Source: Parabacteroides sp. PFB2-10 (lineage in GTDB: Bacteria; Bacteroidota; Bacteroidia; Bacteroidales; Tannerellaceae). Taken from it: a stretch of DNA of 64,000 nt. The translations under genes were made by a program, and so were the position numbers. The stretch is from contig NZ_JARXWI010000008.1 in assembly GCF_029893085.1 (NCBI RefSeq), forward strand, positions 1-64,000, in the 5' to 3' direction. This document shows positions 2,291 to 40,606 of the stretch, in pieces. The notes beneath the pieces are model-generated. The model had not been told where the DNA came from. It saw only the letters and a list, made by a program, of their open reading frames with translations, and did not search any database. Within the stretch, counting starts at the first letter, position 1. Each line of letters opens with the position of its first letter.

Positions 2291-3604
2291 AGCTAATTCA
2301 TAGTGACTTCCTGCTCCAAAGCCTATATTTGTCAATAACTTGTAAGTTTCAACTAGTTCAGACAAATCTCGTGTTGCCGTTGGTTTGGATACCTCATTTA
2401 GCTTTTGATATTCGCTGTTGGTAATCTTCCCTTTTTCTATTACATACAACACCGCTTTTACCTGTCTTTCATTTAATCCAAGTTTATGCAACTGTTCTTC
2501 CGTGTAACTATCCTTAAATAGTTTCACGATGAATCCACCCCCATCCTCTTCCATTACAGGCATCGGTAATCCTGCTACTTTGCAGGAATCTACAATTTTC
2601 ATTATACCACTTCCCCATGAATCAATATAACCACCTCTGAAACAAGCTTCGGCAAGAATAGGATTGCGGGGATAAGACGAATGTGTCTTGGTCAACTGGT
2701 CAAGCGTTATACCATCAGGTAATGTTCCGTGATTCCATACGGTGAGTTTATTATCATAAACACGAATTTGCGTAGGAGCACCCATATAATTTCTGTGGAT
2801 CAGCGAATTAAGCAACATTTCACGCAAGGCAGGAATGGGATATTCCAGTGTTTCTATTCGGTTCATACCCTCAAACGAAATGTTGCGTATCAGAAATTTG
2901 TGGTCAAGCGTACGCAATACCTTATCCAGCACTTGAATGATATTGCCCTCTTCTAATTCCTGAAAGCGGATTGTGAAATCATCATCTTCAAATTTTCCGA
3001 TTTTGACAAATGTATTCGGATAAAATGACCCGGGATCTTTTCCAAATAAAACAATAGCAGCACGTTTGAGTTGCCCATTTTTCGCTAAACGAAGTTTTTC
3101 CAACAACTCAGGTGTGGATAGTCCGTCTATGTCGGGCAAACGACCCGCCTCCTCTGCTTTCCGTAAGAAAATCTTAACCGTTCTCTCATCAATATCTTCA
3201 AATGAGGCACGAGTATCAATCACATCGTCCCAAGTGTGACCAGCTCGTTTAAGCAAGAACTCATTCAAAGACGCACCGGTTAATTCATGCTTTACGCTTC
3301 CACAGCGATAATAAAACCTGCCCCGTAACGAAATTGGCACGGAATAAGGTTGTACGACAATTTCGATATAATGCTTACCGTCCTCTTCAAAAAGATTAAC
3401 TTCGGTTGTTATTCCCATCAGGTTTCTGATCTTGTTTGGAATCTCCTCCATGAGCTTCTTCGAATCCTTTAAGCCAACGACTGTTCCGGAATCATCCTTG
3501 CCAATATATATCTTTCCGCCTTGGGCGTTGGCAAAACCACATACCCATTGCAGATAATCATCATGCCATGAGGATTTATACTCTATGTTTTGTTTTTCGG
3601 GCAT
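2279..3604 (-). CDS. AlbA_2 / Schlafen-like ATP-binding regulator
   Basis: A 441-aa protein of the RecG-like/AlbA_2 family. The N-terminus has the family hallmark E-x-K-S-S near residue 8 and FANAQGGKIYIGKDD at about 24-38. The C-terminal half has a divergent histidine-kinase-type ATPase segment (RNPILAEACF, then GYIDSWGSGI), followed by a winged-helix-like end. Such proteins are often called transcriptional regulators, and Schlafen-like members can be RNA/DNA-acting. It is the last gene of the dnd operon, 8 nt after the 167-aa gene, so it may be a regulator or an added effector. Its 3' end runs into a 10-nt tandem repeat. Confidence 0.8.
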   Translation of the reverse strand: MPEKQNIEYKSSWHDDYLQWVCGFANAQGGKIYIGKDDSGTVVGLKDSKKLMEEIPNKIRNLMGITTEVNLFEEDGKHYIEIVVQPYSVPISLRGRFYYRCGSVKHELTGASLNEFLLKRAGHTWDDVIDTRASFEDIDERTVKIFLRKAEEAGRLPDIDGLSTPELLEKLRLAKNGQLKRAAIVLFGKDPGSFYPNTFVKIGKFEDDDFTIRFQELEEGNIIQVLDKVLRTLDHKFLIRNISFEGMNRIETLEYPIPALREMLLNSLIHRNYMGAPTQIRVYDNKLTVWNHGTLPDGITLDQLTKTHSSYPRNPILAEACFRGGYIDSWGSGIMKIVDSCKVAGLPMPVMEEDGGGFIVKLFKDSYTEEQLHKLGLNERQVKAVLYVIEKGKITNSEYQKLNEVSKPTATRDLSELVETYKLLTNIGFGAGSHYELAIGS

Positions 3605-13478: not shown

Positions 13479-14812
13479 GTTTCTTTAATAAAAGTTTCCA
13501 ACCGTGCTTCAAGATCGTTTTGAAGTCCGTATTTTTTCATTAAAAGCACTTTATTTTTCTGTAATGCAAGCAATTCTTGTATTAAAGAATAATGAGCAGG
13601 ATTGTTGCACGATTTTTCAAGCAAAAGTCGTTCCTGCAATCCGATATTATCATTTGACAAATTGTAACCATAAATCTCGGTATAAATATCATTTACTGTT
13701 GTTGTAAAATTACCATCTCTATACCACATTACTTGTATTGCAATTAGTTCTTGGCTTGTAATCAAGTCAATACTTGAACGATATTGTTGTGTGTCTTTTT
13801 GTATCGTAAGCAATTCTCGCAAAAGTTGTATGCGATATTCCATTGTGTAATTGCCCATTTTATGCCCTGTTTCATCAACGGCTAACTGCCCATTGCGACG
13901 GGTTTCACTGCGGTTATCCGAAACATTCCTATTTTCCACTAATTTATTTCGAAAATTGAGTAAAGGCTGCATCCAATCAATTCCATTTTTGATAAGAGCA
14001 TTCATTGATTTATCTTCTTTTACTACTGTACATACCCAACAACCAAATCGGCTTTGTCCACAAGAACGATGTGAATCGCTAGTTACAACAGTCGGACATT
14101 CGTAATCGTCAGCCGATGCATCCAAATAGATTTTAAAAAGAATTTGGTTGTCGAAGCTCCAAGGCGAAGGAATAGCATTGATAATATACCAAACTTCTTC
14201 CAACATCAATTCTTTAATAGGTGCATAGGTATATGTATTGGGAGTCACCGGATGTCTTGAAAGTCGATGGCCCTTTACCTCATGTTTTTTAATAGATTTT
14301 GCTCGTTGTTGACTTTCAGAAAGCCGAGTTCCTATAAGAATAATAACTTCACCATCTGTAGAGATTTGATTTGCAATAAATACGGAAGTGGGCTTTATTT
14401 TCATTCTTTCAGTACAAAACCGGAAAGAATTGTTAGGAACCGGATATCCTTTTCCAATAACACAACTCCAAAAAGTATCTTCTACTTGTGGCGTGGTCGT
14501 TACAACAGTGATTGGCAATTGTTGTTCTTTTGCTGCTTTTTTGATAGTCTGCAATACATTTGTAACATATTCTTCAATGATGGGATTTTCAACCATTGTG
14601 TCATTGCAAACCACATATACTGATCTTTTGAGTGCTGCTGTTTTTTCTCCTCGAATTTTCCGCAAAGCAAGCCAAACCAACGTAAGCAATACGGTAGAAT
14701 CTTTTCCTCCGCTAAAACCGATTATCCAAGGACGGTTATAGCGATCCTCCTCCGTGTATTGGTCGATTAATTCATTTATTATTTCTGTTATTCTATTTGG
14801 CAATTGCTTCAT
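13475..14812 (-). CDS. dndC: DNA phosphorothioation sulfurtransferase DndC
   Basis: A 445-aa protein of the ATP-pyrophosphatase/PAPS-reductase fold. The SGGKDS loop (34-39) binds ATP. Cys 133, 251, 258 and 261 (contexts RFCTERMK and CGQSRFGCWVC) fit the four-Cys iron-sulfur cluster of DndC. DndC activates and transfers sulfur to the DNA backbone. It is the first gene of the nine-gene operon. No dndA (cysteine desulfurase) or dndB lies in the window, so a chromosomal IscS-type enzyme would have to supply sulfur. A promoter element is visible 46 bases upstream. Confidence 0.95.
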   Translation of the reverse strand: MKQLPNRITEIINELIDQYTEEDRYNRPWIIGFSGGKDSTVLLTLVWLALRKIRGEKTAALKRSVYVVCNDTMVENPIIEEYVTNVLQTIKKAAKEQQLPITVVTTTPQVEDTFWSCVIGKGYPVPNNSFRFCTERMKIKPTSVFIANQISTDGEVIILIGTRLSESQQRAKSIKKHEVKGHRLSRHPVTPNTYTYAPIKELMLEEVWYIINAIPSPWSFDNQILFKIYLDASADDYECPTVVTSDSHRSCGQSRFGCWVCTVVKEDKSMNALIKNGIDWMQPLLNFRNKLVENRNVSDNRSETRRNGQLAVDETGHKMGNYTMEYRIQLLRELLTIQKDTQQYRSSIDLITSQELIAIQVMWYRDGNFTTTVNDIYTEIYGYNLSNDNIGLQERLLLEKSCNNPAHYSLIQELLALQKNKVLLMKKYGLQNDLEARLETFIKET

Positions 14813-14857
14813 TTTTACTTATTTGTCAAAATACAGTCATATCTTAAAATTGCCCTG

Positions 14858-14865
14858 CAAAGATA
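14858..14865 (-). promoter_or_regulatory. -7 element of the dnd operon promoter
   Basis: The minus strand reads TATCTTTG, a perfect match to the Bacteroidetes -7 consensus TAnnTTTG, ending about 45 nt upstream of the dndC start codon. No well-spaced -33 TTTG was found with confidence. Confidence 0.6.
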
Positions 14866-14961
14866 CGCAAATATGATGAGTCTTCATGGCAAAAACACTA
14901 TTTTCTTGCTTTTATCTAATTGTAGATGAGTATGAAGTTCATTTTTCTGTATCTCCTAAGT

Positions 14962-16206
14962 TTACATTTTCCTTCCCTTATTCTTCTTTTGAATTGTAGA
15001 AGATATGTGTTTCTTTTCAACTGTTTGTGTCTTTCGAACCCTTGGGTCGGTAAATGATTCCTTATAATCAGCATCTGCTTTATTCTCTTTCCATAGGTAT
15101 GGATAAGCAAATCCTCCTCCCCACCATTTAATTTTGGCTTTGGTTACATAGCCGTTTTCTATGAGTATCTTATCCCGGATTCGCATTTCATATTGACCGT
15201 ATTTGACAAGATTGTCCGGATTTTCATGACTGAAAAAGGCTTTGTTCTTTTCCTCGTTAAGGAAAACATAGGAGGAGAACTTGCCATCACCACTATTCTT
15301 ATTCATATTTTCAAGGTAAACAAAACCTCCATCTTTCAACGTTTTCCACTGTTCTGGTGATAATTCTACACCTCCGATAGTTGGATTTTTAGGCTTACTT
15401 TGTGTTTGTAATCGCTTTAACTCTGCTATTTGCCTTTCCTGCTGCTGTAAGTGTAATTCTTCAATTCGTTTATTTTCTTCCAAAAGATTCTTCAGAAACT
15501 CTTTTTTCAAATTTCCGAAGCTAAACTTCCGGTCAATCTCTGAATCTTTGAACGCAACACCCCCATATCGGAACGATACCCCTTCAATCTCTTTAACTGT
15601 CCGTTTCCACTTATATTCAACCTCAATCCCATGCTTTTCAAGAGAAAGTCTGAGGTCGAAAGCATTCTTACATACTGGCAAAACCGACTTTATAGCATCA
15701 TGAATATAATACTTCGCCTTATCCGGATTCTTCAATTTCTCCCGTTTAACCTTTTCTTTTCCACTTCCATAAGTCAATCCGTATTTGTCTTTCAGCTTTT
15801 TGCAGACCTTAATGTTTCGTTTATAATCATGGTTGACAGAGATAAGTTTCAGGTCGTTATTAATCCGATTATACACAATATGCAAGTGAGGATTTTCTGT
15901 ATTATTGTGCCGGACAATGATATATTGAGTATTACGGATACTCATTTCTTCCATATATTCTTTTGCCAGTTTCACCATAAATTCATCGGTCATTCTCACT
16001 TTATCTTCAGGAGAAAACGCAATCGGAATATGTCCGACAGGTTGTTTTATTTCTTTCCTGCCGGAGCGTTGCATGGCGAAACTTCGAATGATATCCTGCT
16101 TGGTTTCTGCCCAAACACCTTCCGCTTCAAGCAAGGTTGCGCCCTCATGCATTACATACGACACGCAGCCTTTGAATGACTTCCCTTTGATATTCTTAGC
16201 GATCAT
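14962..16206 (-). CDS. relaxase/mobilization nuclease with DUF3945-like tail
   Basis: A 414-aa MOBP-type relaxase. The N-terminus MIAKNIKGKSFKGCVSYV and the metal-binding HNNTENPHLHIVYNRI (about 105-120) are typical. The catalytic Tyr is not assigned. Residues about 270-350 (VELSPEQWKTLKDGGFVYLE and following) resemble DUF3945 units, as also found at 61630-63279. It would nick at oriT to start transfer of this element, using a helper conjugation system because no tra genes are near. It overlaps the accessory gene upstream by 11 nt. Confidence 0.88.
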   Translation of the reverse strand: MIAKNIKGKSFKGCVSYVMHEGATLLEAEGVWAETKQDIIRSFAMQRSGRKEIKQPVGHIPIAFSPEDKVRMTDEFMVKLAKEYMEEMSIRNTQYIIVRHNNTENPHLHIVYNRINNDLKLISVNHDYKRNIKVCKKLKDKYGLTYGSGKEKVKREKLKNPDKAKYYIHDAIKSVLPVCKNAFDLRLSLEKHGIEVEYKWKRTVKEIEGVSFRYGGVAFKDSEIDRKFSFGNLKKEFLKNLLEENKRIEELHLQQQERQIAELKRLQTQSKPKNPTIGGVELSPEQWKTLKDGGFVYLENMNKNSGDGKFSSYVFLNEEKNKAFFSHENPDNLVKYGQYEMRIRDKILIENGYVTKAKIKWWGGGFAYPYLWKENKADADYKESFTDPRVRKTQTVEKKHISSTIQKKNKGRKM

Positions 16207-16549
16207 GGAATAATGCTCTTATTTTCCCTATCAACTCAAATACTTCCCCGACCGCATCATATAGTCCATGAGCGTTCACTTTCCGAGCAATCTGATTCAT
16301 GTTATTCGCTATGCCGGAAAGCTTGCGCATCAAGTCAAGTTCCTCAATCGTGAAGCGAGATTTAACACATCCCTTCAATGTCATTTCTCGCACATACTGC
16401 GTTGCTTTCATCCCTAATTTCTCGGCTTTTTCCTTTACCGAATTGAAATCGTCTTCGGTCAATTTCAAATTGATCGAGGTAGAAAGCTTAGCTTTTTCTT
16501 TGGCAGGTCTGCCTACTTTGGTTTTCTTCTCTTTCTTATTTTCCATAAC
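16196..16549 (-). CDS. MobC-type relaxosome accessory protein
   Basis: A 117-aa protein starting at MENKKEKKTKVGRPAKEK. The upstream open frame to 16810 is rejected because it crosses the oriT-like repeats and encodes a low-quality Cys/Pro-rich leader. The body has a ribbon-helix-helix-like start (STSINLKLTEDDFNSVKEKA) and the MobC block LSGIANNMNQIARKVN. It should bind oriT and position the relaxase. The C-terminus overlaps the relaxase start by 11 nt. Confidence 0.85.
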   Translation of the reverse strand, partial: VMENKKEKKTKVGRPAKEKAKLSTSINLKLTEDDFNSVKEKAEKLGMKATQYVREMTLKGCVKSRFTIEELDLMRKLSGIANNMNQIARKVNAHGLYDAVGEVFELIGKIRALFHDR

Positions 16550-16576
16550 ACTGATTTTTAGAGTTATGGAAAATCT

Positions 16577-16598
16577 CCGTGTGCATATCAGCACACGG
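16577..16598 (+). other. candidate oriT inverted repeat
   Basis: Perfect 8-bp arms CCGTGTGC and GCACACGG flank a 6-nt loop, 28 nt upstream of the mobC-like start codon. A hairpin at this place is typical for an oriT relaxase-recognition site. The nick site cannot be assigned from sequence alone. Confidence 0.5.
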
Positions 16599-16614
16599 GC
16601 AAGATGAAACGAAA

Positions 16615-16727
16615 GCGACCATCGGGAGATGAAGTGGAAACTTGCAACACAGCCTGCCGGTTTTGCGACCATCGGGAGCAAAACAAAAGGGCTGTGAAGT
16701 GCCCCGACCGGATGCAACCATCGGGCG
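16615..16727 (+). repeat. three iteron-like repeats, about 50-bp spacing
   Basis: The 14-mer GCGACCATCGGGAG occurs at 16615-16628 and 16665-16678, with a variant GCAACCATCGGGCG at 16714-16727. The spacing of 50 and 49 nt is close to five helical turns, so the sites lie on the same DNA face. They probably bind a relaxosome protein or a regulator of the mob genes. Confidence 0.65.
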
Positions 16728-17264
16728 CAGCAGGAAGAGCAAAAGGTAAATTCAGGTGTAGCCGGATTTATCTTTTGTGGGGGCACAGCCTCGCAGAGCA
16801 AGGTTTGCACAGGAGGAACTTGAAAGAGCGATTAGCGAATTTCGGGTTACCCGTGCGATTACCTTGCTCCTTTGAAAATCGAAAAAAAAGAAAGAAGCGG
16901 GAGCTTCTGCCTTTTTTGAACGATATTCAACATGAATGAATAAAGGCGGGCTTAAAGTTAGGATGCCCGGCTTTTGCAATACAGGGACTGTATTGCCGTT
17001 GGCTCTTCATGTGTAAAGAGAGCCACCTGAATTGAAAATAGCCTTAAATACTTTCATTTTAGTCGGTATAAATGACAACAAGAATGTTTCCCAATCTTGA
17101 TTGAGGTGACAAATATAGAATATAACAGTGACAACCAAATACTTCGTGATAATCTTGCCGTAGCATGCTTTTATTTGCTGCCTTGACGGAGTGGTTTGAA
17201 CCGCTTTTACTACTCAGATTGGTAGTATTACCTATATTACTTTGAAAATACGTATCTTTACGCC
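16728..17264. other. noncoding stretch upstream of the 332-aa gene
   Basis: About 540 bp without a convincing gene. It contains a short hairpin (TGGCTCT...AGAGCCA, near 16999-17024) and a -7-like TATCTTTA at 17253-17260 just ahead of the next start codon. The first part probably belongs to the oriT region; open frames crossing it look like chance. Confidence 0.4.
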
Positions 17265-18263
17265 ATGTTTGAGTATGATGATGAGATAGAATATATGGAT
17301 TTCTCGGAAGAAGGCTTTCGTGAGGTGCAGCAATGCCTTGACTGCTTTGTAGAGGTAAACTATGAGACTGCGCTCGGTATGTTGTACAGGATGAAGCCCA
17401 CACCGGAGGATATTACTCTTTATCGGGGGAAAGTATTGGATATAATTCGTCATAATCCACCGCTTGAAAGTGTACCCCGCTATTTCAGGGATGGACGGGA
17501 AGACTATCTTTGGTACAGCGATTTCTATGATGATATTACTAAAGAGGCTTATCAACGTTACCGGACATTTGTAGCTTCACAAGTAGAGATTACTACGGCT
17601 AATTATACAGAAGAACTTTCAAAAATTGATTTGCCTTACTTCCGAGAACTCATAGACCTCGTATCATTGGAAAAACTTTGTATGCTCTACGAAGTAAATC
17701 AGCCTTTACAAAAAGAGGAGACCGATATGGAGGAAGAAACGGATATTGCTCCCGATGGAGATTCTGGTATAGAAACTATTGTTGATATACCACAAAAAAC
17801 AGAAGTTGACGAACAAACGGAACTAACCCAACCCGCACGACAACCGAAGAAACGCTCCTACGAACCAACACTTAACAGCAAACAATATAGATTACTCGCT
17901 GAATGTGTAGAAGAAATAAAACTCTTTCGACGTAAGGTAAAGATTGGCGAACTAAAAAAGCTGTTGAAGGGAAAACTGACCGAACCGATGGAAGTTGCCA
18001 ATCAGAAATCATTGGTTTACCTTTTAGACCAACTAAGCGAGAACAAGTATATCAAAGATACATGGATATCGGTTGCCGACGGTAACCGGGACTTCCTCTC
18101 TTTCCGTACTGAGGGTAATAAACAACGTTACGGAAACAACCCCCATTATATTACTATGCAACAACTCCTGAATTGCCGGAATCGTAATAAACGGGAATCT
18201 ATCTTCGGGCTTGTTGAGATAGAAGAAATGATTGATTTGGTGGAGGAAAACCGGGATAACTAA
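17265..18263 (+). CDS. hypothetical protein (332 aa)
   Basis: A 332-aa acidic protein with no recognised family. The N-terminal half (about 1-145) is aromatic and acidic. A low-complexity acidic/Gln linker follows (about 146-198, many Glu, Asp, Thr), ending in a basic patch RQPKKRSYEP. The C-terminal part (about 200-330) looks like a winged-helix fold (segments KVKIGELKKLLKGKL, LVYLLDQLSENKYI). A DNA-associated role in the mobile element is possible. It lies between the oriT region and a structured noncoding region, facing away from the mob genes. Confidence 0.7.
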   Translation: MFEYDDEIEYMDFSEEGFREVQQCLDCFVEVNYETALGMLYRMKPTPEDITLYRGKVLDIIRHNPPLESVPRYFRDGREDYLWYSDFYDDITKEAYQRYRTFVASQVEITTANYTEELSKIDLPYFRELIDLVSLEKLCMLYEVNQPLQKEETDMEEETDIAPDGDSGIETIVDIPQKTEVDEQTELTQPARQPKKRSYEPTLNSKQYRLLAECVEEIKLFRRKVKIGELKKLLKGKLTEPMEVANQKSLVYLLDQLSENKYIKDTWISVADGNRDFLSFRTEGNKQRYGNNPHYITMQQLLNCRNRNKRESIFGLVEIEEMIDLVEENRDN

Positions 18264-18506
18264 CTCCAAATATTCCGGCTTTGAAATATTTCCTATATTT
18301 CTTGAAATTATTTTCGTTTCCTACCAAAATGATACTATCTGCTGAAATTCAGCAAATTGACACATCTTCATAACCATCCCTATACACTCATTTTTCTCAA
18401 TCTTAATTACACTCTCACACAAAACCATGTTGACTACCAGACACATACCACTCCAACCTGTTAGGTAAAGTTGTTATCCAAACAGCGCAGGCATCGGAGA
18501 GTTCAT

Positions 18507-18545
18507 ATCTTGCACCCGATCTCGGAAACAGCCGTTGTGCAAGAT
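18507..18545 (+). repeat. inverted repeat with 9-bp perfect arms
   Basis: ATCTTGCAC and GTGCAAGAT enclose 21 nt. It lies in a 519-bp gene-free stretch (18264-18782) between the 332-aa gene and the small regulators. No U tract follows, so it is not a simple terminator. Confidence 0.55.
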
Positions 18546-18630
18546 CGCATCTTTGGCTTATCCTTCCGAGAGATTAATGTGGTATGAGCAGAACTAATCG
18601 TATCAGGGATGACTGAGTATTCTATTTGAA

Positions 18631-18728
18631 AAGTAAGGATGTACGATCTTAATAAATATCCGCTTTGTACAGAATAACATTCCCGGAATTGTACAAAGCA
18701 AAAAATCATAGTTTGTGCATCCTTACTT
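18631..18728 (+). ncRNA. nested inverted repeats, possible structured RNA or protein-binding site
   Basis: Outer arms at 18631-18644 and 18715-18728 pair over 14 positions, with one G-U in RNA. Inside them, GCTTTGTACA (18662-18671) and TGTACAAAGC (18690-18699) form a perfect 10-bp stem. The whole would fold into a long two-level hairpin ending 55 nt before a small open frame. It may be a regulatory leader, an antisense-type RNA or a recombination site; nothing distinguishes these yet. Confidence 0.4.
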
Positions 18729-18782
18729 ATTTCATTATGAGATTAAGAAGAGAAATATTACTAAGATTTAAACAGAAAGAAT

Positions 18783-19160
18783 ATGAGTGACGAACTTGAA
18801 AATGTAAAACCGGAGGTAGAAACAAAAGGTATATCAGAGATGATAGAGGATAGTACATGAATGCCAACCTCCCGTACAAAGCAGACCCGGAAGAAAGACG
18901 AGGATGAATATGCTCGACGATTTCTGTCGGTTCGGAAAGTAAAGGATTATACTCCCGTATATATTGATGTACGCATGAAAGAGAAACTGCAAACATTGGT
19001 GGCATCCCTGCAACACATTGTACCGGAGATAACGCCGACGCTTCTTTTGTCCAACATTCTTGCCGACCATTTGTCGGTAAACAGAGAATTGATAACCCGT
19101 GCTGCCAACGAAGGACTGAAACGCTCCTTAGCCAGCACATTTAATAACGAGAAAGAATAA
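18783..19160 (+). CDS. DUF3408-type protein with in-frame TGA-ATG junction
   Basis: Two frames in the same phase: 25 codons from 18783 (MSDELENVKPEVETKGIS...), a TGA at 18858-18860, then ATG at 18861 and 99 codons to 19160. The 99-aa part has the DUF3408 pattern of conjugative-element proteins (VYIDVRMKEKL, then PTLLLSNILADHL), a family with ribbon-helix-helix-like DNA-binding character. The main product probably starts at 18861, perhaps by re-initiation. The 25-codon part may be the lost N-terminus of the same protein. The next gene at 19168 has the same arrangement. Confidence 0.7.
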
Positions 19161-19167
19161 AAAAGGT

Positions 19168-19449
19168 ATGGAGATTATTTGTGTTGATTTGTCGGCATGG
19201 GAAGTGCTGAAAACAGAAATCGTTAGATTAACTTCGGAAGTATTCGCATTGAAGGAGTTATATTGCCCCAATCCACGGGACGGCTGAATGGATTCGGCGG
19301 ATGTATGCCGAACGCTCAGTATCTCGAAACGCACGCTTCAAACGTGGCGTAATACGGGTAAGATAGCCTACTCAATGTTAGGCGGTAAGGTATATTATCA
19401 CCAGTCGGATGTGGAAGCATTGGTTCAATCAGGTATGAAACGGAGGTAA
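19168..19449 (+). pseudogene. HTH (excisionase-like) protein split by in-frame TGA
   Basis: A 39-codon frame from 19168 (MEIICVDLSAWEVLKTEI...) ends at TGA 19285-19287 and continues in the same phase from ATG 19288 for 53 codons (SADVCRTLSISKRTLQTWR, then GGKVYYHQSDVEALV). The second part is a MerR/excisionase-type HTH as in the neighbour at 19452-19751. In relatives a Trp is usual before this block, so TGG to TGA is a likely origin. It is either a pseudogene or two coupled short products. Confidence 0.6.
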
Positions 19450-19451
19450 TC

Positions 19452-19751
19452 ATGGATAAGTTTATCGGTTTTGAGGCCCCTGAGTTCAAGGAACTGACGA
19501 GACAAATAAAAGAAGCTCTGCATGATATAGATGCTGTTCGGAAGAAACATCGTCCCTCGTTGGCAGACAAGCGTTACCTGACAGGAGAGGAAATAATGGA
19601 ATACCTGCATATCTCTCCAAGAACGCTTCAAAACTTACGAGACCAACGAGTTATCTGCTTTACTACTATCGGAGGAAAGATTCTCTACCCGGAGAATGAA
19701 TTGGAAGAGGTATTGCATCAGAACTACCGTTCGCCGGAACTGCCATTCTAA
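19452..19751 (+). CDS. HTH excisionase-family DNA-binding protein
   Basis: A 99-aa protein. Residues about 42-90 hold the helix-turn-helix of Bacteroidetes excisionase-like regulators (YLTGEEIMEYLHISPRTLQ, LRDQRVICFTTIGGKILYPE). The N-terminus is helical. It starts 2 nt after the stop of the split HTH gene and both lie beside an integrase, which fits roles in excision control or regulation of the element. A hairpin terminator follows at 19824. Confidence 0.85.
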   Translation: MDKFIGFEAPEFKELTRQIKEALHDIDAVRKKHRPSLADKRYLTGEEIMEYLHISPRTLQNLRDQRVICFTTIGGKILYPENELEEVLHQNYRSPELPF

Positions 19752-19823
19752 TATCAACTATTATTGATATGCAGATTCAGAAGGCGAGGGAGTGAAGTTG
19801 CCTTACGCACATAAATAAAAAAT

Positions 19824-19866
19824 AAGCATTCCGTACGAAGTACATCAGGGATGCTTGTTTTTTTTA
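19824..19866 (+). terminator. Rho-independent terminator after the HTH genes
   Basis: Arms AAGCATTCC and GGGATGCTT (one mismatch) with a stem extended by the inner bases, followed by GTTTTTTTT. It ends the plus-strand regulator operon. Confidence 0.8.
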
Positions 19867-20075
19867 TGATGCTATGCGTCATCGTCGGGTTGGTCGTTTC
19901 GTTGCAGGGCTTTCTCCATTTCGGCCAAAGGATTAAACGGGCAAGCCTCGAAGTGAAAATATTACCTGACCATGCGGGAAGGTGGAGATTTTCGCTTACG
20001 ACCGTAAGGCGAAGGGCTTGACAGTTCAATCCGGGCGAAATATCTTTGTCCTGTAATGAAATGAACGTTCCGGCG
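19867..20075. other. noncoding stretch with a possible gene relic
   Basis: On the minus strand a short frame ending at 19872 reads protein-like (FHFEACPFNPLAEMEKALQR), but it is opened by a stop and has no start codon. I read it as a relic of a mobile-element gene. No other feature is supported here. Confidence 0.25.
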
Positions 20076-20441
20076 TTAATTGAGTTGGAAATTGTTCATT
20101 TGCAATATAGTTACTCTAATATCGACATTATCGGCAACTTTTTCCATTAACCACATTCTGAACTTGGAAGCATCCGGCGAGTTAAGCCGGAACGATAAGG
20201 CAATAATCATTTCCAAATCAAAAACTTCAGGTAAAAGAATTTTCCCTATTTGCCTAACTTCGCAACAGAGGGATGGCTTTACAACTCCCAATTGAATAAT
20301 TGACTTAACATTTGCTCGAACTGCCTGTTCAAAAACTCCAAATAATCGGGCTACCTGCCAATCCCGCAGACGGATTTCTTTTCCTTCACCGGATTCAATA
20401 GCTTTTATCAAATCTACAACCGTTATTTCCTCCTTGTTCAT
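20076..20441 (-). CDS. RhuM-like protein beside integrase
   Basis: A 121-aa protein related in layout to the one at 798-1217: an HTH-like LRDWQVARLFGVFEQAVRAN segment, then FDLEMIIALSFRL and FRMWLMEKV. It overlaps the 3' end of the integrase gene by 4 nt, so the two are translationally coupled. The repeated pairing of this short protein with tyrosine recombinases suggests an accessory role in integration, excision or immunity. The function is not known. Confidence 0.6.
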   Translation of the reverse strand: MNKEEITVVDLIKAIESGEGKEIRLRDWQVARLFGVFEQAVRANVKSIIQLGVVKPSLCCEVRQIGKILLPEVFDLEMIIALSFRLNSPDASKFRMWLMEKVADNVDIRVTILQMNNFQLN

Positions 20442-21730
20442 AGCATTGTTTTTTGTCGTTTACCAATCTTTCCAATATTTCTAAAGTCCGATGCCGGTCT
20501 GTTTATTTCAACCTGATATTTATCTCCAATCTTATCCGTCAGGGCTGCCATATCCCGACTGATCTTCTCATTCGTGATTTTGGCATATATCTGGGTAGTT
20601 TGGATATTCGTATGACCCAACATCTGGCTAACGGTCTCAATAGGAACGCCTTGCGATAATGTGACAGTGGTCGAGAACGTATGGCGCCCCATATGCGACG
20701 AAATCCACTTCGTGATTCCTGCCTGTTTGGCAATTCGTCTGAGGGTGCGGTTCATATTCTCCGCATTGCTTGGCACCGGGAATATAAACTGGTTCTTTGC
20801 TACGATCCGGTACTGTTCTATCAGTTGTTTGGCTACCGGAAGTAATTTGACATAAAATGTCGTACCTGTTTTCTTACGCTTAGCAATCAACCAGAGTTCG
20901 CCATCAAAAGATGTTTGTATATCGTCGAATGTCAATTTACGAACATCGGAGTAGGCTAAACCAGTAAAAGCTTGAAAAACAAAAATATCCCGTATCTGCC
21001 GTTGTTTATATCGCCTTAACTCTACTGTCATAAACCGTTGTAGTTCATCCTCTGTCAAATAACCTCTATCACGTGTCTTCGCCTTGAAACGGAATCCGGC
21101 AAAAGGATTAACCCGAACAAAACCACGACGTTGAGCAATTAGCATAATTTGCTTGAGCTTGGTAATCGCTGTCAGTAAAGTGCTTCCGGCCAATTTTCGT
21201 TCTTCAAGCAAGTAGCTATAATAGTCCTGAATAAATTGCGGTTCGATTTCCCGAAGGGGTATGTCCGAAAGGTTATACTTGTCTTTTAGGAAACTCTCAA
21301 TCCGTTTGCGGTTGATAAGTAACTGCTCGTATGATCCTTCTGTACGATCTTTGCCTACACGTTTACTGTATTGCTCATAAAACTCATCGGCAACAGACAA
21401 CAGGCTACGGTACTCTTCTCCAAAACCTAAATATCCGTTTTTGACTTTCTCGGCTGAAACAAAATTATCCCTGTCGCAAATACTTTGGTACTGCTTACCG
21501 ATTTGCGTACGGATATTATCCAACTTTTGATTGATTTTCTGTGCTTGGAGGCTTTTTCCTGCTGCACGGTTGGCAGCGGTATCCCAAAGCGACGGCTTGA
21601 TATTTAGCTTACAGCTAAATTGCGCAATACTGCTGTTTACCGTTATCCTTCCCATGATTGGGGCGGTTCCGTCCGGTTTCAAATTGTTCTTCTTGAGATA
21701 GAACAAAACTTTAAATGTACTTCGTTGCAT
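20438..21730 (-). CDS. tyrosine recombinase/integrase of the defence island
   Basis: A 430-aa site-specific recombinase of the Bacteroidetes conjugative-element type. It has an N-terminal arm-binding and SAM-like core-binding region (about 1-210) and a catalytic domain with FTGLAYSDVRKL, the H-x-x-R box SSHMGRHTFSTT, LGHTNIQTTQ and the nucleophile in QIYAKI. All expected active-site residues of this family appear present. It lies next to the candidate right attachment site (21845-21863) and is the likely integrase of the 2.07-21.86 kb element. A -7 promoter element is at 21751-21758. Confidence 0.93.
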   Translation of the reverse strand: MQRSTFKVLFYLKKNNLKPDGTAPIMGRITVNSSIAQFSCKLNIKPSLWDTAANRAAGKSLQAQKINQKLDNIRTQIGKQYQSICDRDNFVSAEKVKNGYLGFGEEYRSLLSVADEFYEQYSKRVGKDRTEGSYEQLLINRKRIESFLKDKYNLSDIPLREIEPQFIQDYYSYLLEERKLAGSTLLTAITKLKQIMLIAQRRGFVRVNPFAGFRFKAKTRDRGYLTEDELQRFMTVELRRYKQRQIRDIFVFQAFTGLAYSDVRKLTFDDIQTSFDGELWLIAKRKKTGTTFYVKLLPVAKQLIEQYRIVAKNQFIFPVPSNAENMNRTLRRIAKQAGITKWISSHMGRHTFSTTVTLSQGVPIETVSQMLGHTNIQTTQIYAKITNEKISRDMAALTDKIGDKYQVEINRPASDFRNIGKIGKRQKTML

Positions 21731-21750
21731 AACTCTAATTTTAATGGTTA

Positions 21751-21758
21751 CAAATTTA
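21751..21758 (-). promoter_or_regulatory. -7 element for the integrase gene
   Basis: The minus strand reads TAAATTTG, fitting TAnnTTTG, 20 nt upstream of the integrase ATG. Confidence 0.5.
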
Positions 21759-21844
21759 GTTTATTTAGAATTATCCGGCACTATGCAAATTTACGCAAAC
21801 TACTGAATAAAAGCACATTGCAATAATATTTAAAAACCTTCTCA

Positions 21845-21863
21845 GGTAACGAGTTGGTAACTG
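21845..21863 (+). other. candidate right attachment site of the defence island
   Basis: GGTAACGAGTTGGTAACTG is a direct near-repeat (16/19) of 2069-2087 and contains GGTAAC twice, 5 nt apart. It lies 114 nt upstream of the integrase start and 87 nt from the end of a truncated integrase gene. An inverted GTAACGAG copy occurs near 21947-21954. Confidence 0.4.
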
Positions 21864-21949
21864 AAAAGACTGCCAACTCTGCTTTTTTATGCTTTTATTC
21901 CCAATATTTCAAAAAGAACCACACTTATAATCCACTGATTTTGTTCTCG

Positions 21950-22648
21950 TTACACCCTTTTGCTTTCCCTCTCAAAAACGGCTGCTGTCTCTTTCAAATA
22001 ATCATTCATCTTTTGATTACTTGCTATCGGTAAATTTTGACTGTACTTATTCAAAATTTTCTGCGGAACTGAAAGCAAAGGGATTATAACAGGTGTATAT
22101 GTCATGCTCCGCATAATTTTGATAATAGGATTACCGTCTTTATCTGTTTCAAAATTTTCGGTTGTTAGCATTGATAAGTCTGAATAATTCAGACCTGTAA
22201 AACAGGAAAAGATAAATACATCCCTTACTTGTTCAAGTCTTTTAGTCGAAAACTTTTTGCTCAAAATAGACTGTAACTCCTTTTCCGAAAGGAAGGCACG
22301 AACTACCTCTTGCCTTTTAATCCGGTAATGGCTAAAAGGGTTGTTGGATATAGCCTGTTTTTCACAGGCTATATTTACAATACGACGGAATAATTCTATT
22401 TTCTTGGCGGCTGTGTTTACGTTATATTTGCGAAACTTCATCAGGTAATTTTCAAAACCTATTATGAAATTGACGTCGATTTCGGACAGCAAGTAATCAA
22501 CTTTCCCATATCGTTGTTTAATGTAATCAGCGATATAGTTTCTCACCGCTTCATATTTCAGGTAGGTAGATAAGGCTTTAACCTTATATACATTCTTATT
22601 ATACTCGTCGAACAGAGCTATTACTGTTGAATATTCATTTTTTTTCAT
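21950..22648 (-). pseudogene. tyrosine recombinase, N-terminal fragment
   Basis: A 232-aa frame that aligns with the middle of the downstream integrase: the core-binding part and the start of the catalytic domain (FSCFTGLNYSDLSMLT). It stops after NQKMNDYLKE plus 12 unrelated residues, before the H-x-x-R box and Tyr, so it cannot recombine DNA. The complementary C-terminal part of such a gene is found at 1760-2068 on the other side of the island. The overlapping 10 codons differ, so the two may derive from different copies. Confidence 0.75.
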
Positions 22649-22668
22649 TACTATTAAAAATTAGTGGG

Positions 22669-24111
22669 TTAAACAGCTAATTGAGTATTGGCTTTTTCCG
22701 ATTTAAAAGTGAGATTGCCTTCATTTTCAAAAGTATTAGACCAGAGAGATAATTTTTCTTCTTCTGAAAGGCTATGCCACATGACAGATATACGCTTTAA
22801 TCTTTCGGGATCATCAGACAGAGTGCCGGGAAGATTAAATAAAGCCATTTTTTCATGCAATGAAAGGCATTCAAAAAGTTTATCTAAATTAGATTTAGAT
22901 TTGATTCGCCTTTCTTCAAGTTTTTCAGCAAAAGAAGCCATATCGTTGCTTACCTTAACATCGGTAATTCTTGCATAAATTTGGGTAGTTTTTATGTTTG
23001 TATGACCTAACATTTTTGATACACTTTCAATGGAAACTCCTTTTGTAAGCGTAAGAGTGGCGAAAGTGTGTCTTGCAAGATGAAATGTTAAATCTTTGTC
23101 AATACCGCAAACAGCTCCGATTTCTTTGAGATATTCATTCACTTTTTGATTGCTTGGAACAGGGAGAACTTTCTTATTGGGCATCGTCCCTTTATACTTC
23201 TCAATAATTTGCTTTGGAATGTCGAGTAATGGAATATTGTAGCTTGTACCTGTCTTTTCACGTTTCCCCATTATCCACAAATTATTATCAAATGAAATGC
23301 GGATATTACTTTCATCCAATCCTTTTACGTCTATATAGGAAAGTCCGGTATAACAGCTAAAAATAAAGATATCTCTTACTCGCTCCAAACGTTCAGAAGA
23401 GAATTGTTTCTTCATGATTTCGTCTATTTGTTCTTGCATTAAATAGCCTCTATCGACTTTCTTAAACTTTATTTTATAGTTGGCAAAAGGATCAATGTGA
23501 ATCCAACCGTTATTTTTGGCGAAAAGAATAATAGTGCGGAATCGCTGTAAGAATTTAGCAGTAGTATTTTCCTTACATTTGCAGCTTGTCATTAGGTACA
23601 CTTCAAAATTTCTCAAAAAGGAGTGATTTACCTCTTTCAAAGAAATATCAGCAACATTATAATACTCTTTAATAAAATTAGCCATGTGCCTACGGGCTAC
23701 GTCATATTTTTGAAGTGTACCTTTTGCCCTGCTTATACCAACCAATTTAGCGATATCATCAACATGCCGTTGGAATAATTCGAGTACGGTTTGGTTTTTA
23801 ATTTCAAGACCAAGAAAGATATTTTTAACCCGATCAGGATTAACATTGTTCTCTTTGGTGAGTAAATCATGGTAAACGTTGTATAAGCCTGTTTTAATTG
23901 TTTCCAGAAAGGTATTTATCTCGACAGCTTCTTTTGTTCTGCCCAGAGCCATTGACGACTTTACATCCCATGATTTAGGATGCACATTTAATTTGGTACT
24001 GAAACGGCTTATTTGTCCGTCGATTGTAATCCGGCACATGATAGGAACACTGCCATCGGATTTTTGCTTGTCTCTTTTCAAAAAGAAAAGAACTTTAAAT
24101 GTACTTTTCAT
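22669..24111 (-). CDS. tyrosine recombinase/integrase with C-terminal extension
   Basis: A 480-aa recombinase. The catalytic domain has FSCYTGLSYIDVKGL, HLARHTFAT, LGHTNIKTTQ and the Tyr in QIYARI. About 70 residues follow the usual end (RRIKSKSNLDKLFECL to the stop), which the 430-aa integrase lacks. It is 20 nt upstream of the truncated integrase fragment on the same strand. The two may come from tandem element insertions. It probably belongs to a separate element from the defence island. A -7 element is at 24132-24139. Confidence 0.92.
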   Translation of the reverse strand: MKSTFKVLFFLKRDKQKSDGSVPIMCRITIDGQISRFSTKLNVHPKSWDVKSSMALGRTKEAVEINTFLETIKTGLYNVYHDLLTKENNVNPDRVKNIFLGLEIKNQTVLELFQRHVDDIAKLVGISRAKGTLQKYDVARRHMANFIKEYYNVADISLKEVNHSFLRNFEVYLMTSCKCKENTTAKFLQRFRTIILFAKNNGWIHIDPFANYKIKFKKVDRGYLMQEQIDEIMKKQFSSERLERVRDIFIFSCYTGLSYIDVKGLDESNIRISFDNNLWIMGKREKTGTSYNIPLLDIPKQIIEKYKGTMPNKKVLPVPSNQKVNEYLKEIGAVCGIDKDLTFHLARHTFATLTLTKGVSIESVSKMLGHTNIKTTQIYARITDVKVSNDMASFAEKLEERRIKSKSNLDKLFECLSLHEKMALFNLPGTLSDDPERLKRISVMWHSLSEEEKLSLWSNTFENEGNLTFKSEKANTQLAV

Positions 24112-24131
24112 AAACTCATTTTTTAATGTTA

Positions 24132-24139
24132 CAAAATTA
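24132..24139 (-). promoter_or_regulatory. -7 element for the second integrase
   Basis: The minus strand reads TAATTTTG (TAnnTTTG), 20 nt upstream of the ATG, the same spacing as for the integrase at 20438-21730. Confidence 0.5.
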
Positions 24140-24340
24140 AAGTAAACTATCTGTTAATGAGTTTTATGCAGACTGCCAATTCCCGACAACACACTGCCAA
24201 TTTTGGACAATTCGTACCCCTTTTTCTTTGATTTCTCGTACCCCCTGTGTCCCTTTTTGGTTTGGGGTATGAAATGGGACACACTAAATGTCTTTTTTTG
24301 GCTTTATTTTGGCTTTTTCCTAAGACAACATAAATAAAAA

Positions 24341-24382
24341 AAGTCCCTCATATTCACTGAATATGAAGGACTTGTCTCTTTT
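24341..24382. terminator. bidirectional terminator hairpin
   Basis: A long stem (AAGTCC-TCATATTCA against TGAATATGA-GGACTT, one mismatch) with A-rich left and T-rich right flanks. It isolates the integrase region from the repeats that follow. Confidence 0.75.
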
Positions 24383-24408
24383 TTGGCGCCTATTGACTTA
24401 GGCTTTCC

Positions 24409-24657
24409 GCGGTATGGACGGAAGTCGTTATTTTTAGAATTAGTCCTCTGTGTTTCAGCTTGTTATCTCTCCGATTTCTCTTAAGGTGAACACTTTAGGA
24501 TATTAACTCCTAATTAGCTGATTATCAATACTAAATAACATTTTCGTCTATAACACCGACATTTTGCGGAACGGACGGGACTCATTAAGTACTACAATCC
24601 ATACCTCAATATCAACGTTTTATCTTTACTTTTGCTGTAAGGTGAACACTTTAGGAG
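24409..24657 (+). repeat. degenerate 157-bp-period direct repeat, noncoding
   Basis: The 19-mer TAAGGTGAACACTTTAGGA is perfect at 24482-24500 and 24639-24657. A 22-nt segment starting GCGG at 24409 recurs at 24566 with 17/22 identity. Both pairs are exactly 157 nt apart, and the sequence between shows weaker similarity. It is therefore one duplicated unit of at least 92 nt. There is no coding capacity. It may be paired attachment or regulator sites, or duplicated small RNAs. Confidence 0.65.
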
Positions 24658-24764
24658 TACAAATATAGTCCTGCTTGTCACCGCTTTGGCCTCTCTTGAC
24701 CGCACATAATTTACATTTACAAATGTAGATATTCTTTTTGTTTTCACAAAGCATTTACGCGAAA

Positions 24765-24849
24765 ATCGGCTCATATTTTATTTATTTTACATGAATATCG
24801 GCTCAGAGTGAGCTGATATTTGACTATAAATGTATATCTTTGAGCCGAT
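24765..24849 (+). promoter_or_regulatory. Fic gene promoter with four operator half-sites
   Basis: ATCGGCTCA occurs at 24765-24773 and 24797-24805, and its complement TGAGC(T/C)GAT at 24809-24817 and 24841-24849. The middle pair forms an 11-bp-arm palindrome. The last half-site overlaps the -7 element TATCTTTG (24835-24842). This layout suggests tight, probably autogenous repression by the HTH of the Fic protein. Confidence 0.65.
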
Positions 24850-24863
24850 AAAAACATCAAATC

Positions 24864-25898
24864 ATGACTCTTGAAGTAGAAATATTACAGTATTTGCATT
24901 TTAACCCGTTATCATCCAGAACGGAATTGATGACTGGAATTCAGACAACAGCAAGTGCAGCAACCATAAAGCGCATATTAGCAAATTCAGTTGAAAAGAA
25001 GGACATCGAAGTTTCCGGTCGAGGTCCATCAACCCGGTATAAGCTATCATCACAGGCTCACGTAACAATGCCTCTGGATTTAGATACTTACTTCCTAAAA
25101 GAGATTGATGAACGTCAAATCCAAACAGGATATAATTTTGATTTAATCCGTGACATTCTTCCCAAAGTCAATCTATTTACTCCTGAAGAGAACGACTTCT
25201 TATTTTCTCTGCAGGAGACATTTAGGCAAAATATTTCTGATATGACTTCTACCGAATATCGCAAGGAAATGGAACGATTGGGAGTTGATTTAAGTTGGAA
25301 GTCTTCTCAAATAGAAGGAAACACATACTCTCTGCTGGAAACCGAACGCTTACTTAACGAGAAGCAAACAGCCAGCGGAAAAACGAAAGAGGAAGCAATA
25401 ATGTTGCTTAATCATAAAGATGCTTTTGACTTCATCTTGGACAATCCGGATTATTTGATGCTTTTATCCGTAAAAAAAATAGAAGACATACACAGTCTTC
25501 TTATCAAGGGGTTGGGAGTTGAACGAAACATTCGCCATCGTCGTGTAGGCATAACTGGAACCAACTATCGTCCTTTAGATAATGAGTTTCAAATACGTGA
25601 AGCACTCGCTGATACTTGTGATCTAATCAATAGTAAAGAGAATATTTTTGAGAAAGCTCTATTGACACTGGTTTTGCTTTCATATATACAAGCATTTGTT
25701 GATGGAAATAAACGGACTGCTCGTATCACCAGTAATGCTATTCTCGTAGCGAACAACTACTGCCCTATATCTTTTCGTTCGGTAGATTCAGTAGACTTCA
25801 AAAAGGCAATGTTGCTTTTCTATGAACAGAATAACATCTCTGCCTTCAAAGAAGTATTCATTGAACAATTTGAATTTGCGGTGAAAACATATTTTTAA
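24864..25898 (+). CDS. Fic family protein with N-terminal HTH, catalytic His replaced
   Basis: A 344-aa protein. Residues 1-65 look like a winged helix (TELMTGIQTTASAATIKRIL). An inhibitory-type motif SSQIEGN lies at 147-153. The Fic loop reads QAFVDGNKRTAR (276-287), where HPFxDGNGR is usual, so the catalytic His is Gln and the Pro is Ala. Active Fic enzymes transfer AMP or similar groups; this one may be inactive, use another mechanism, or act as a regulator. Four operator half-sites precede the gene. Alternative: an ordinary member of a Fic subfamily that lost activity. Confidence 0.85.
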   Translation: MTLEVEILQYLHFNPLSSRTELMTGIQTTASAATIKRILANSVEKKDIEVSGRGPSTRYKLSSQAHVTMPLDLDTYFLKEIDERQIQTGYNFDLIRDILPKVNLFTPEENDFLFSLQETFRQNISDMTSTEYRKEMERLGVDLSWKSSQIEGNTYSLLETERLLNEKQTASGKTKEEAIMLLNHKDAFDFILDNPDYLMLLSVKKIEDIHSLLIKGLGVERNIRHRRVGITGTNYRPLDNEFQIREALADTCDLINSKENIFEKALLTLVLLSYIQAFVDGNKRTARITSNAILVANNYCPISFRSVDSVDFKKAMLLFYEQNNISAFKEVFIEQFEFAVKTYF

Positions 25899-39607: not shown

Positions 39608-40015
39608 ATGGCTGAAGTATTTTACGATATAACCCATCTGACCACTGATGAACTTCGGGAGCTGTTTACCTCCTACCGCAAACTTGGTTGGATAGATTAT
39701 GAATACGAAGTATTAGGTGAGAATAACCCTCCGGTACAGAAGCTTTCGGATGCCGAAATTATTTTGAATATTGAAGCTGATAAAGAAGGGAACTACTTCG
39801 TCTTCATGCTCAACCACGAAGATGAGGAAGACGGAGTGATGATAGGTTTCCGGCTAAGTTATCATGAAAATCTATTCGCATACCTACATCTCCCGCCTAA
39901 ATATCTGAAAGAACTTATCGACAATTATGCTCTGGTAAGTAAGGGTACGAACGTAGAAAACTTGACTGTTGAGCAGTTCCTGATAAAACAAGCGAAAGAC
40001 CTTCCAATGAATTGA
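39608..40015 (+). CDS. hypothetical acidic protein (135 aa)
   Basis: A 135-aa protein, strongly acidic in the middle (EADKEGNYFVFMLNHEDEED). No family recognised. Its own promoter element lies just upstream and a second unknown gene follows 30 nt later. Confidence 0.65.
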   Translation: MAEVFYDITHLTTDELRELFTSYRKLGWIDYEYEVLGENNPPVQKLSDAEIILNIEADKEGNYFVFMLNHEDEEDGVMIGFRLSYHENLFAYLHLPPKYLKELIDNYALVSKGTNVENLTVEQFLIKQAKDLPMN

Positions 40016-40045
40016 TATTGTATTTATTCTCTAAATCATACATTT

Positions 40046-40606
40046 ATGAAAGAGCAAGACCCCAACGACCTCATTTACTCAATCCCCCCTGAACAGCAAG
40101 CCGAGAAGCGCAGGCAAATTCAGCAATGCAGCACTTTTCTTTGGTTCATCGAGCATACACACATCGATCAGTTGAAGTTGTTAAATGCTGAGATTGATAA
40201 GATATTTGAGGTGGGTATTTCGCTCGAAGAGTTTATGTTGACCGGAATGACTGACCAGGAAGTTAGTTCCGATAATTACCGGACGATTGCTATTCTTTGT
40301 TTCTATGAAACGTTTATGGAGTATGTGGAGGAAATATGTGCCCCTACTCGTGATTTGAAAAAGAACTCAGATTTTATAGGAACATACGACAATACGCTTA
40401 AAGAGATTATTAATTATCTGGATGGAAAGCGTGATGATTTTCCGCGTGAAATGGTACGTTGTCTATTCCTTTTGACTGATGAGGATCTGAACCCTCACCG
40501 ACAGGGTATGGCGTTAACTCAACTCGTCTTAGAGAGCTTTGCTCATTGCCATTCCGACGAGCAACGAACCGAGATTGAACGGCTGATTAAAGAATGTAAG
40601 ATATAA
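40046..40606 (+). CDS. hypothetical protein (186 aa)
   Basis: A 186-aa, largely helical acidic protein with no signal peptide or known motif. Segments such as WFIEHTHIDQLKLLNAEIDK suggest an alpha-helical fold. It follows the 135-aa gene by 30 nt and is ended by a shared hairpin terminator. Confidence 0.65.
   Translation: MKEQDPNDLIYSIPPEQQAEKRRQIQQCSTFLWFIEHTHIDQLKLLNAEIDKIFEVGISLEEFMLTGMTDQEVSSDNYRTIAILCFYETFMEYVEEICAPTRDLKKNSDFIGTYDNTLKEIINYLDGKRDDFPREMVRCLFLLTDEDLNPHRQGMALTQLVLESFAHCHSDEQRTEIERLIKECKI

Follow-up and report, generated by a model that had tools for sequence, protein, structure and literature searches.

Two neighbouring genes of a mobile element in Parabacteroides sp. PFB2-10, here termed genes A and B, each contain an in-frame TGA. 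Comparison of homologues indicated, with good confidence, that both genes are intact and yield full-length product only by read-through of the UGA, most likely with Trp inserted by the near-cognate tRNA-Trp(CCA) in competition with release factor 2 (RF2). The two UGAs would then form two serial gates, at the level of translation, on DNA-binding proteins. Across the homologues the UGA was kept, the sequence on both sides was coding, no restart codon was conserved, the gene B position corresponded to a Trp column, and selenocysteine machinery was not detected in the genomes searched. From this comparison we infer read-through itself, the insertion of Trp (in gene A as well) and a purpose in controlling excision or mobilisation. 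Read-through, probably by Trp, would be needed to make proteins that likely control the movement of the element.

Genes A, B and C and the surrounding element

The first-pass annotation of the window (the whole stretch of 64,000 nucleotides that was analysed) had pointed out TGAATG at 18858–18863 and 19285–19290, splitting a DUF3408 gene and a helix-turn-helix (HTH) gene, respectively. Both sites were confirmed. The first lies in the frame of the ATG at 18783, which reads on in phase until a TAA ending at 19160, and the second in the frame of the ATG at 19168, which continues to a TAA ending at 19449; both frames are open on either side of the TGA (Table 1). The gene assignments were borne out by Pfam. 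The part of gene A after the UGA belongs to DUF3408 (PF11888, E 1.7e-10; 41.7 bits with a cut-off of 29.9), and gene B has both an HTH_17 domain match (PF12728, E 2.1e-12, residues 40–88) and an integrase gene as a neighbour.

TGAATG by itself is not rare, occurring 23 times on one strand of the window and 16 times on the other. Thirteen ATG-headed frames in the window run for at least 24 codons to a TGA and then for at least 50 open codons, and genes A and B were the only two of these in which ATG comes next. The TGAs of genes A and B stand above chance because they are conserved. Elsewhere in the window, at 39608–40603, a 135-codon frame ends with a TGA at 40013 and is followed by a 196-codon frame in the same phase; neither half matched Pfam at E 0.1.

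Table 1. Positions of the genes, in-frame UGAs and neighbouring features in the window.
Feature	Position	Strand	Remarks
MobA/VirD2-type relaxase of the element	14962..16206	-	PF03432, E 1.6e-31
MobC/NikA-type mobilisation protein	16196..16603	-	PF21983 and PF05713, both above cut-off
Conserved 332-residue protein	17265..18263	+	No Pfam match; same element
Gene A, DUF3408 protein	18783..19160	+	125 positions, UGA is the 26th (25 before, 99 after); frame kept on both sides
In-frame UGA of gene A	18858..18860	+	Context AGT ACA TGA ATG
Gene B, HTH_17/excisionase-like protein	19168..19449	+	93 positions, UGA is the 40th
Stretch of reduced silent variation at the gene B UGA	19273..19311	+	Includes predicted small stem-loop 19295–19310 after the UGA
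In-frame UGA of gene B	19285..19287	+	Trp column of relatives; first residue of the HTH_17 match
Gene C, second HTH_17 protein	19452..19751	+	No internal stop; PF12728, E 2.4e-11
Tyrosine recombinase (int1)	20438..21730	-	Convergent with A-B-C; PF00589, E 1.7e-21

The surroundings of A-B-C are those of a mobile element, with a relaxase, MobC, the 332-residue protein and convergent tyrosine recombinases. Homologous loci were collected in one scan of the genome collection with the post-TGA part of gene A, which gave 18 loci from records titled Dysgonomonas, an Azobacteroides bin, other Bacteroidia or Bacteroidales, and a Rikenellaceae bin. In all 18, gene C follows gene B. The three genes lie head to tail, with 4–37 nt from the last aligned codon of gene A to the start of gene B and 4–19 nt between genes B and C (13 loci), and likely constitute an operon with gene C at its end. 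Gene C scored below the cut-off of TIGR01764 ('excise'). The 332-residue protein was matched in 18/18 loci, in two of them (L007 and L021) partly. A match to int1 with at least 49% identity was present after gene C in 14 of the 18 loci and a weak one in a further locus (L005), and none was found in the other three compared (L009, L011 and L017).

On the minus strand, three tyrosine recombinase genes follow one another at 20438–24111. The middle one (21950–22648) is short and appears to be without its catalytic end; eight homologous loci stop at nearly the same place, by TAG, TAA or TGA.

Conservation of the TGA codons and selection on both sides

The gene A TGA was present in all 18 loci having the post-TGA part, and the gene B TGA was likewise present in 18/18. 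A text search, which demanded a stop, extended the gene A set to 20 distinct homologues, all with the TGA and 19 of them with ACA before it; a 21st text match (L065) was false and was dropped. Searching with a profile that made no demand for a stop returned the same 20 sequences, and the 19 that cover the site have exactly one stop, a TGA. In the remaining one (L021) the profile match lies only after the site, the TGA was seen separately, and the frame is broken downstream of the UGA. With more genomes added and duplicates removed, the gene B TGA was found in 23/23 distinct sequences. Two of these (L146 and L147) have an unrelated 5' part, and a profile search of the stretch at each locus found no gene A beside gene B in L141, L146 or L147. 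For L141 (genome G465), where gene B carries its TGA, this search covered 3.3 kb.

Broader searches, with homologue sets that overlap those above, gave the same pattern among the matches listed. Exactly one internal stop, a TGA, was found at 7/7 high-scoring gene B places in a 393-genome sample of the order, at 21/21 in 101 Dysgonomonadaceae genomes, and at 7/7 high-scoring places in a whole-genome search for gene A, which also returned one far weaker match without a stop. Outside the window's clade, and again among the matches listed, the 393-genome search gave four rows with an internal TGA (two in G269, one each in G024 and G246), and the 101-genome search gave one row with an internal TGA and one with a TAG. 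The first-pass annotation had proposed that simple pseudogenes or sequencing errors would be betrayed by homologues with TGG at both positions. Within the window's clade no such pattern was found, and TGG at the gene B position appeared only in distant relatives. A sequencing error at a methylated motif was also considered and dropped, as independent genomes carry the same TGA.

The homologues have diverged extensively at silent sites. Over the 18 loci with genes A, B and C, the silent tree length ranged from 5.2 (85 sites) to 7.2 (29 fourfold sites) substitutions per site, and invariant silent columns numbered 0 of 29 fourfold and 5 of 56 twofold sites. Median dN/dS was 0.36 before and 0.06 after the UGA in gene A, and 0.12 before and 0.09 after it in gene B, with 0.07 for gene C as a control. 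Given this silent turnover and these dN/dS values, both halves of each gene look translated in one frame with the UGA kept. A stop maintained under coding selection on both sides, in a single frame, is the pattern looked for in read-through.

The same data bear on decay, in which genes A and B would be pseudogenes with nonsense mutations. One genome alone would look so, and single cases elsewhere may be decay (L161 and L088, described below), with other damage or loss seen in L021, L146 and L147. However, every distinct homologue seen at the site has the same TGAs, purifying selection acts on both sides and silent sites are near saturation, making decay an explanation to which we attach practically no probability. 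A change from TGG to TGA, another suggestion of the first-pass annotation, may plausibly have occurred in the past of gene B; it would not amount to simple decay, since the TGA was maintained afterwards.

Decoding at the UGA positions

The next codon offers another reading of the conserved TGAs, namely a stop followed by termination-coupled re-initiation, so that each gene would encode a short leader peptide plus a second protein started just past the UGA, from ATG or some unusual codon. ATG comes next in the window and was adjacent to the TGA in 12 of the 23 gene B and 8 of the 20 gene A sequences, and the deposited annotation of a Bacteroides finegoldii copy has the HTH protein begin at a CTG immediately 3' of the TGA. 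The restart codon is variable, however, with ATA, CTG, GTA, TTG, ACT, ACA, ACG, GCT and GTG as the other codons found next to the TGA. No ATG, GTG or TTG occurred within the first 9 post-TGA codons in 9/23 gene B rows, or within the first 21 in 8/20 gene A rows. The Met that follows the gene B UGA is explained by the protein itself, since Trp-containing relatives also mostly have Leu or Met there. Upstream of the UGA, gene B can be aligned with these relatives, in which that segment runs into the HTH domain without a break. The ATG lies outside the conserved feature. Re-initiation at the ATG after a programmed stop, as envisaged in the first-pass annotation, was therefore disfavoured, the restart codon not being conserved, and we regard it as improbable. 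A further option named there, UGA read-through, was supported by the homologue comparison, and it predicts the observed absence of a conserved start downstream of the stop.

The residue to be expected at the gene B UGA was indicated by the relatives. Counted by eye over 39 gene-B-type rows (three gene-C-type rows were left out), the column contained Trp in 36, and Lys, Leu and TGA in one each. A second alignment of relatives gave the same picture, a Trp column with a few Tyr. By alignment, the UGA of gene B replaces a near-invariant Trp. In the AlphaFold model of gene B (mean pLDDT 83.7, pTM 0.52), the UGA residue is predicted to open the first strand of the HTH unit. Solved structural neighbours include BldC, RdfS and Pukovnik Xis, all with E above 0.001.

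An in-frame UGA with a small stem-loop after it, as in gene B, could also suggest insertion of selenocysteine. No tRNA-Sec exceeded the cut-off in the host genome or in 16 further genomes, of which 14 carry the window's clade, one the second clade described below and one (G269) L089; three of these are single-contig. In the control, the cut-off was exceeded in 5/14. The six hits below the cut-off in the host genome were ordinary Ser, Leu and Arg tRNAs. Nor did any protein of the host genome exceed the cut-off for SelB: the best match, taken for a putative EF-Tu, scored 199 bits against 242, and the control was over the cut-off in 2/14. No match to a SECIS family was found in positions 14000–25000 of the window or in six loci, and the gene B column is Trp in relatives, not Cys. 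The hallmarks of a bacterial selenoprotein, tRNA-Sec and SelB in the host and Cys at the UGA position of gene B relatives, were thus not found, and selenocysteine at these UGAs is very unlikely.

Reassignment of UGA to Trp throughout the genome or the element would place UGA at a Trp column. Against this, TGA ends 5 of the 34 ATG-headed frames of at least 200 codons in the window, and RF2 is present with its usual CTT TGA C frameshift site. The other invariant Trp of gene B, 20 codons past the UGA, is TGG in 23/23 sequences, and the other element genes compared have no internal TGA common to homologues. Among 49 tRNA matches in the host genome, ARAGORN, applied to their loci, found one tRNA-Trp, with anticodon CCA (and no tRNA in one locus, L173). 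UGA is thus in use as a stop, RF2 is retained and tRNA-Trp(UCA) was not seen, which makes a variant code hardly conceivable here. The window and 38 loci surrounding gene B contained no tRNA gene, so that no special decoder was identified there. A shortened, 4-bp anticodon stem in tRNA-Trp, an idea taken from a published account (PMC13092985), was considered and rejected, the host tRNA-Trp having a normal 5-bp stem. Recoding of another kind at the UGA (RNA editing or bypassing, for example) is unlikely: nothing specific to it was found and, as the frame is unchanged, no frameshift is needed.

With read-through by Trp as the preferred reading, most ribosomes on the A-B-C message would stop at each UGA, where the near-cognate tRNA-Trp(CCA) of the host would compete with RF2. 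A minority would insert Trp and finish DNA-binding proteins of an excision-directing or excision-control kind. The gates would keep the levels of the A and B proteins low or make them follow the state of translation termination in the host. A truncated gene B product would be without the whole HTH domain, and the close spacing of the genes suggests that an early stop may also reduce translation of the next gene. The gates may open under host stress, which would fit the account of UGA read-through in Escherichia coli, where mainly Trp is inserted and levels rise in poor media and in the cold (PMC11126739). The codons before the stops, Ser-Thr in gene A and Asp-Gly in gene B, would be in line with a study that reports depletion of Thr as the C-terminal residue across bacteria and cites release after Gly as slow (PMC7246954); the same study reports that a C-terminal Thr was without effect on expression in Mycoplasma pneumoniae. 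Usual levels of read-through would yield little protein, which we counted against the proposal.

Several known systems resemble parts of this arrangement. Xis2c/Xis2d-type HTH proteins of CTnDOT and other Bacteroides elements are encoded by tandem HTH_17 genes beside a tyrosine recombinase, like genes B and C, but relatives of gene B mostly have an ordinary Trp codon at the place of the UGA. Phage Q-beta reads a conserved in-frame UGA at a low level to give a longer protein. Read-through in RNA viruses, as outlined for alphaviruses, shares the conserved in-frame UGA, the low-level reading and the longer product. However, viral and Q-beta read-through extends a protein or splits a polyprotein, whereas the stops of genes A and B precede or open the DNA-binding domain, so that little useful product is likely to be made without read-through. 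In the autoregulation of prfB (RF2), also present in the host genome, a coding-region UGA likewise serves as a sensor of termination, with the difference that a +1 frameshift is used.

The closest regulated parallel appears to be the frameshift gate of FseA in ICEMlSymR7A and its relatives, in which a low-frequency +1 programmed frameshift limits an activator of the excision factor RdfS (PMC10359603). Both would concern conserved, often mis-annotated recoding within the excision control of an integrated element, producing a DNA-binding regulator at a low level. FseA differs in relying on a frameshift rather than stop read-through, in being proteobacterial and unrelated as a protein, and in having one site, not two genes in a row. 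No prior description of the in-frame UGAs of genes A and B was found in searches of the open-licence PMC literature. To our knowledge, conserved stop read-through has hardly been described in bacterial genes outside RNA phages.

If the proposal is true, these elements of Bacteroidota would provide a doubled case of a translational gate on gene transfer, with the same UGA found in gut Bacteroides and Phocaeicola. Transfer could then be linked to the state of release factor and tRNA-Trp, and the genes would offer a natural system for finding what makes a bacterial UGA leaky. Genes of this type can be mis-annotated, as with the B. finegoldii copy, begun after its UGA.

Origins of the gene B UGA and signals around it

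Outside the window's clade, a distant second clade (L090 and seven viral-contig loci 75–92% identical to it) had the TGA at the same codon in 8/8 loci, with pN/pS values of 0.45 before and 0.21 after the UGA. Among 29 plasmid and phage matches, six were examined: the B. finegoldii and Phocaeicola massiliensis records, assigned to the second clade, had TGA at the gene B codon and the four others TGG. Two further TGA cases were single. One, L089 (genome G269), was placed by the tree weakly with the window's clade, on a long branch; the other, L161 (G453), paired with a Trp row (93/84) and may represent recent decay, since all three of its relatives have Trp. A pattern scan of viral contigs for TGA at the gene B place returned 31 stretches, none of which was this gene once translated, and one short match to the L089 gene B in viral contigs was rejected as no true relative.

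In a tree of 86 rows, the window's clade (15 rows, 100/96) and the second clade (6 rows, 99/88) stood apart among Trp rows. The best tree required three changes, while a tree holding the two main TGA clades together was not rejected (p-AU 0.185). On phylogenetic grounds a repeated origin of the gene B UGA seems likely; a single old origin would make the UGA even older.

The bases around the gene B UGA varied less than the rest of the gene at silent sites. From 4 codons before to 8 codons after the UGA, pS was 0.52 compared with a gene mean of 0.79 (permutation p 0.0013, for a stretch chosen after the codon table had been seen). The same silent-rate test found no dip around the gene A UGA. The lowest silent rate of the three genes occurred at the start of gene C (0.31 in a 9-codon window, vs. 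0.39 at the gene B UGA), and silent dips therefore need no UGA. The very low silent variation at this start, from 19452, possibly marks a translation or DNA-binding signal of its own.

Codon usage near the gene B UGA was biased at positions -4 (CCC, 16/20), -2 (GAC, 16/20), -1 (GGC, 15 of 19 Gly codons) and +3 (TCG, 18/20), as well as at +6 (GTC in 16/19, vs. 28 of 269 Val codons elsewhere in genes A–C) and +7 (TGC in 20/20, vs. 16/62 elsewhere). When distinct stretches were selected with a strict motif, GTC TGC was present in 15 of 20 with TGA and 0 of 33 with Trp; selection with a looser motif gave 18/23 and 4/61. The rows are related and comprise only 1–3 independent pairs, so the association of GTC TGC with TGA is suggestive only. 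GTC TGC was found in the second clade (8/8) and in L089, and was absent from L161 and from the window, where +6 is GTA. The SECIS hairpin of E. coli fdhF carries a similar GUCUGC.

The bases after the gene B UGA can form a 6-bp stem, with 90% of cells paired across the homologues, among which no covariation or compensatory change was found. A different fold, in which the far arm of the stem pairs with bases immediately upstream of the UGA, was 85% paired, showed no covariation and was rejected. Predicted folding energy was mildly low near the gene B UGA (mean z -1.45, n = 23) and not low near that of gene A (mean z -0.64, n = 20).

Taken further, these patterns would fit a dedicated switch. 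In an excisionase-like gene of Bacteroidota mobile elements, UGA would have taken the place of one near-invariant Trp codon more than once and been retained, along with GTC TGC about 15–20 nt after it as a sequence signal, to serve as a Trp read-through switch. A second switch in the DUF3408 gene of the window's clade would give two serial gates, letting the element leave when host termination weakens. This extension is tentative and rather doubtful at present, its odds being lowered by the failure to reject a single TGA clade; the gene A evidence comes from one clade.

Two further sites were noted near gene B relatives. In G269, which also has L089, another gene B relative (L088, bases about 3083–3349) has an in-frame TGA about 10 codons past an intact Trp, and may be decayed or another recoded copy; it was left out of the counts, the TGA being at another place, as was L091, whose match starts outside the gene. 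In two near-identical loci of the second clade (L215 and L216), about 150–570 bases before gene B, the upstream gene is DUF3408-like (E 2.7e-5, below the cut-off) and appears split between overlapping frames, with a -1 offset close to a run of A, which could reflect another recoding site or decay.
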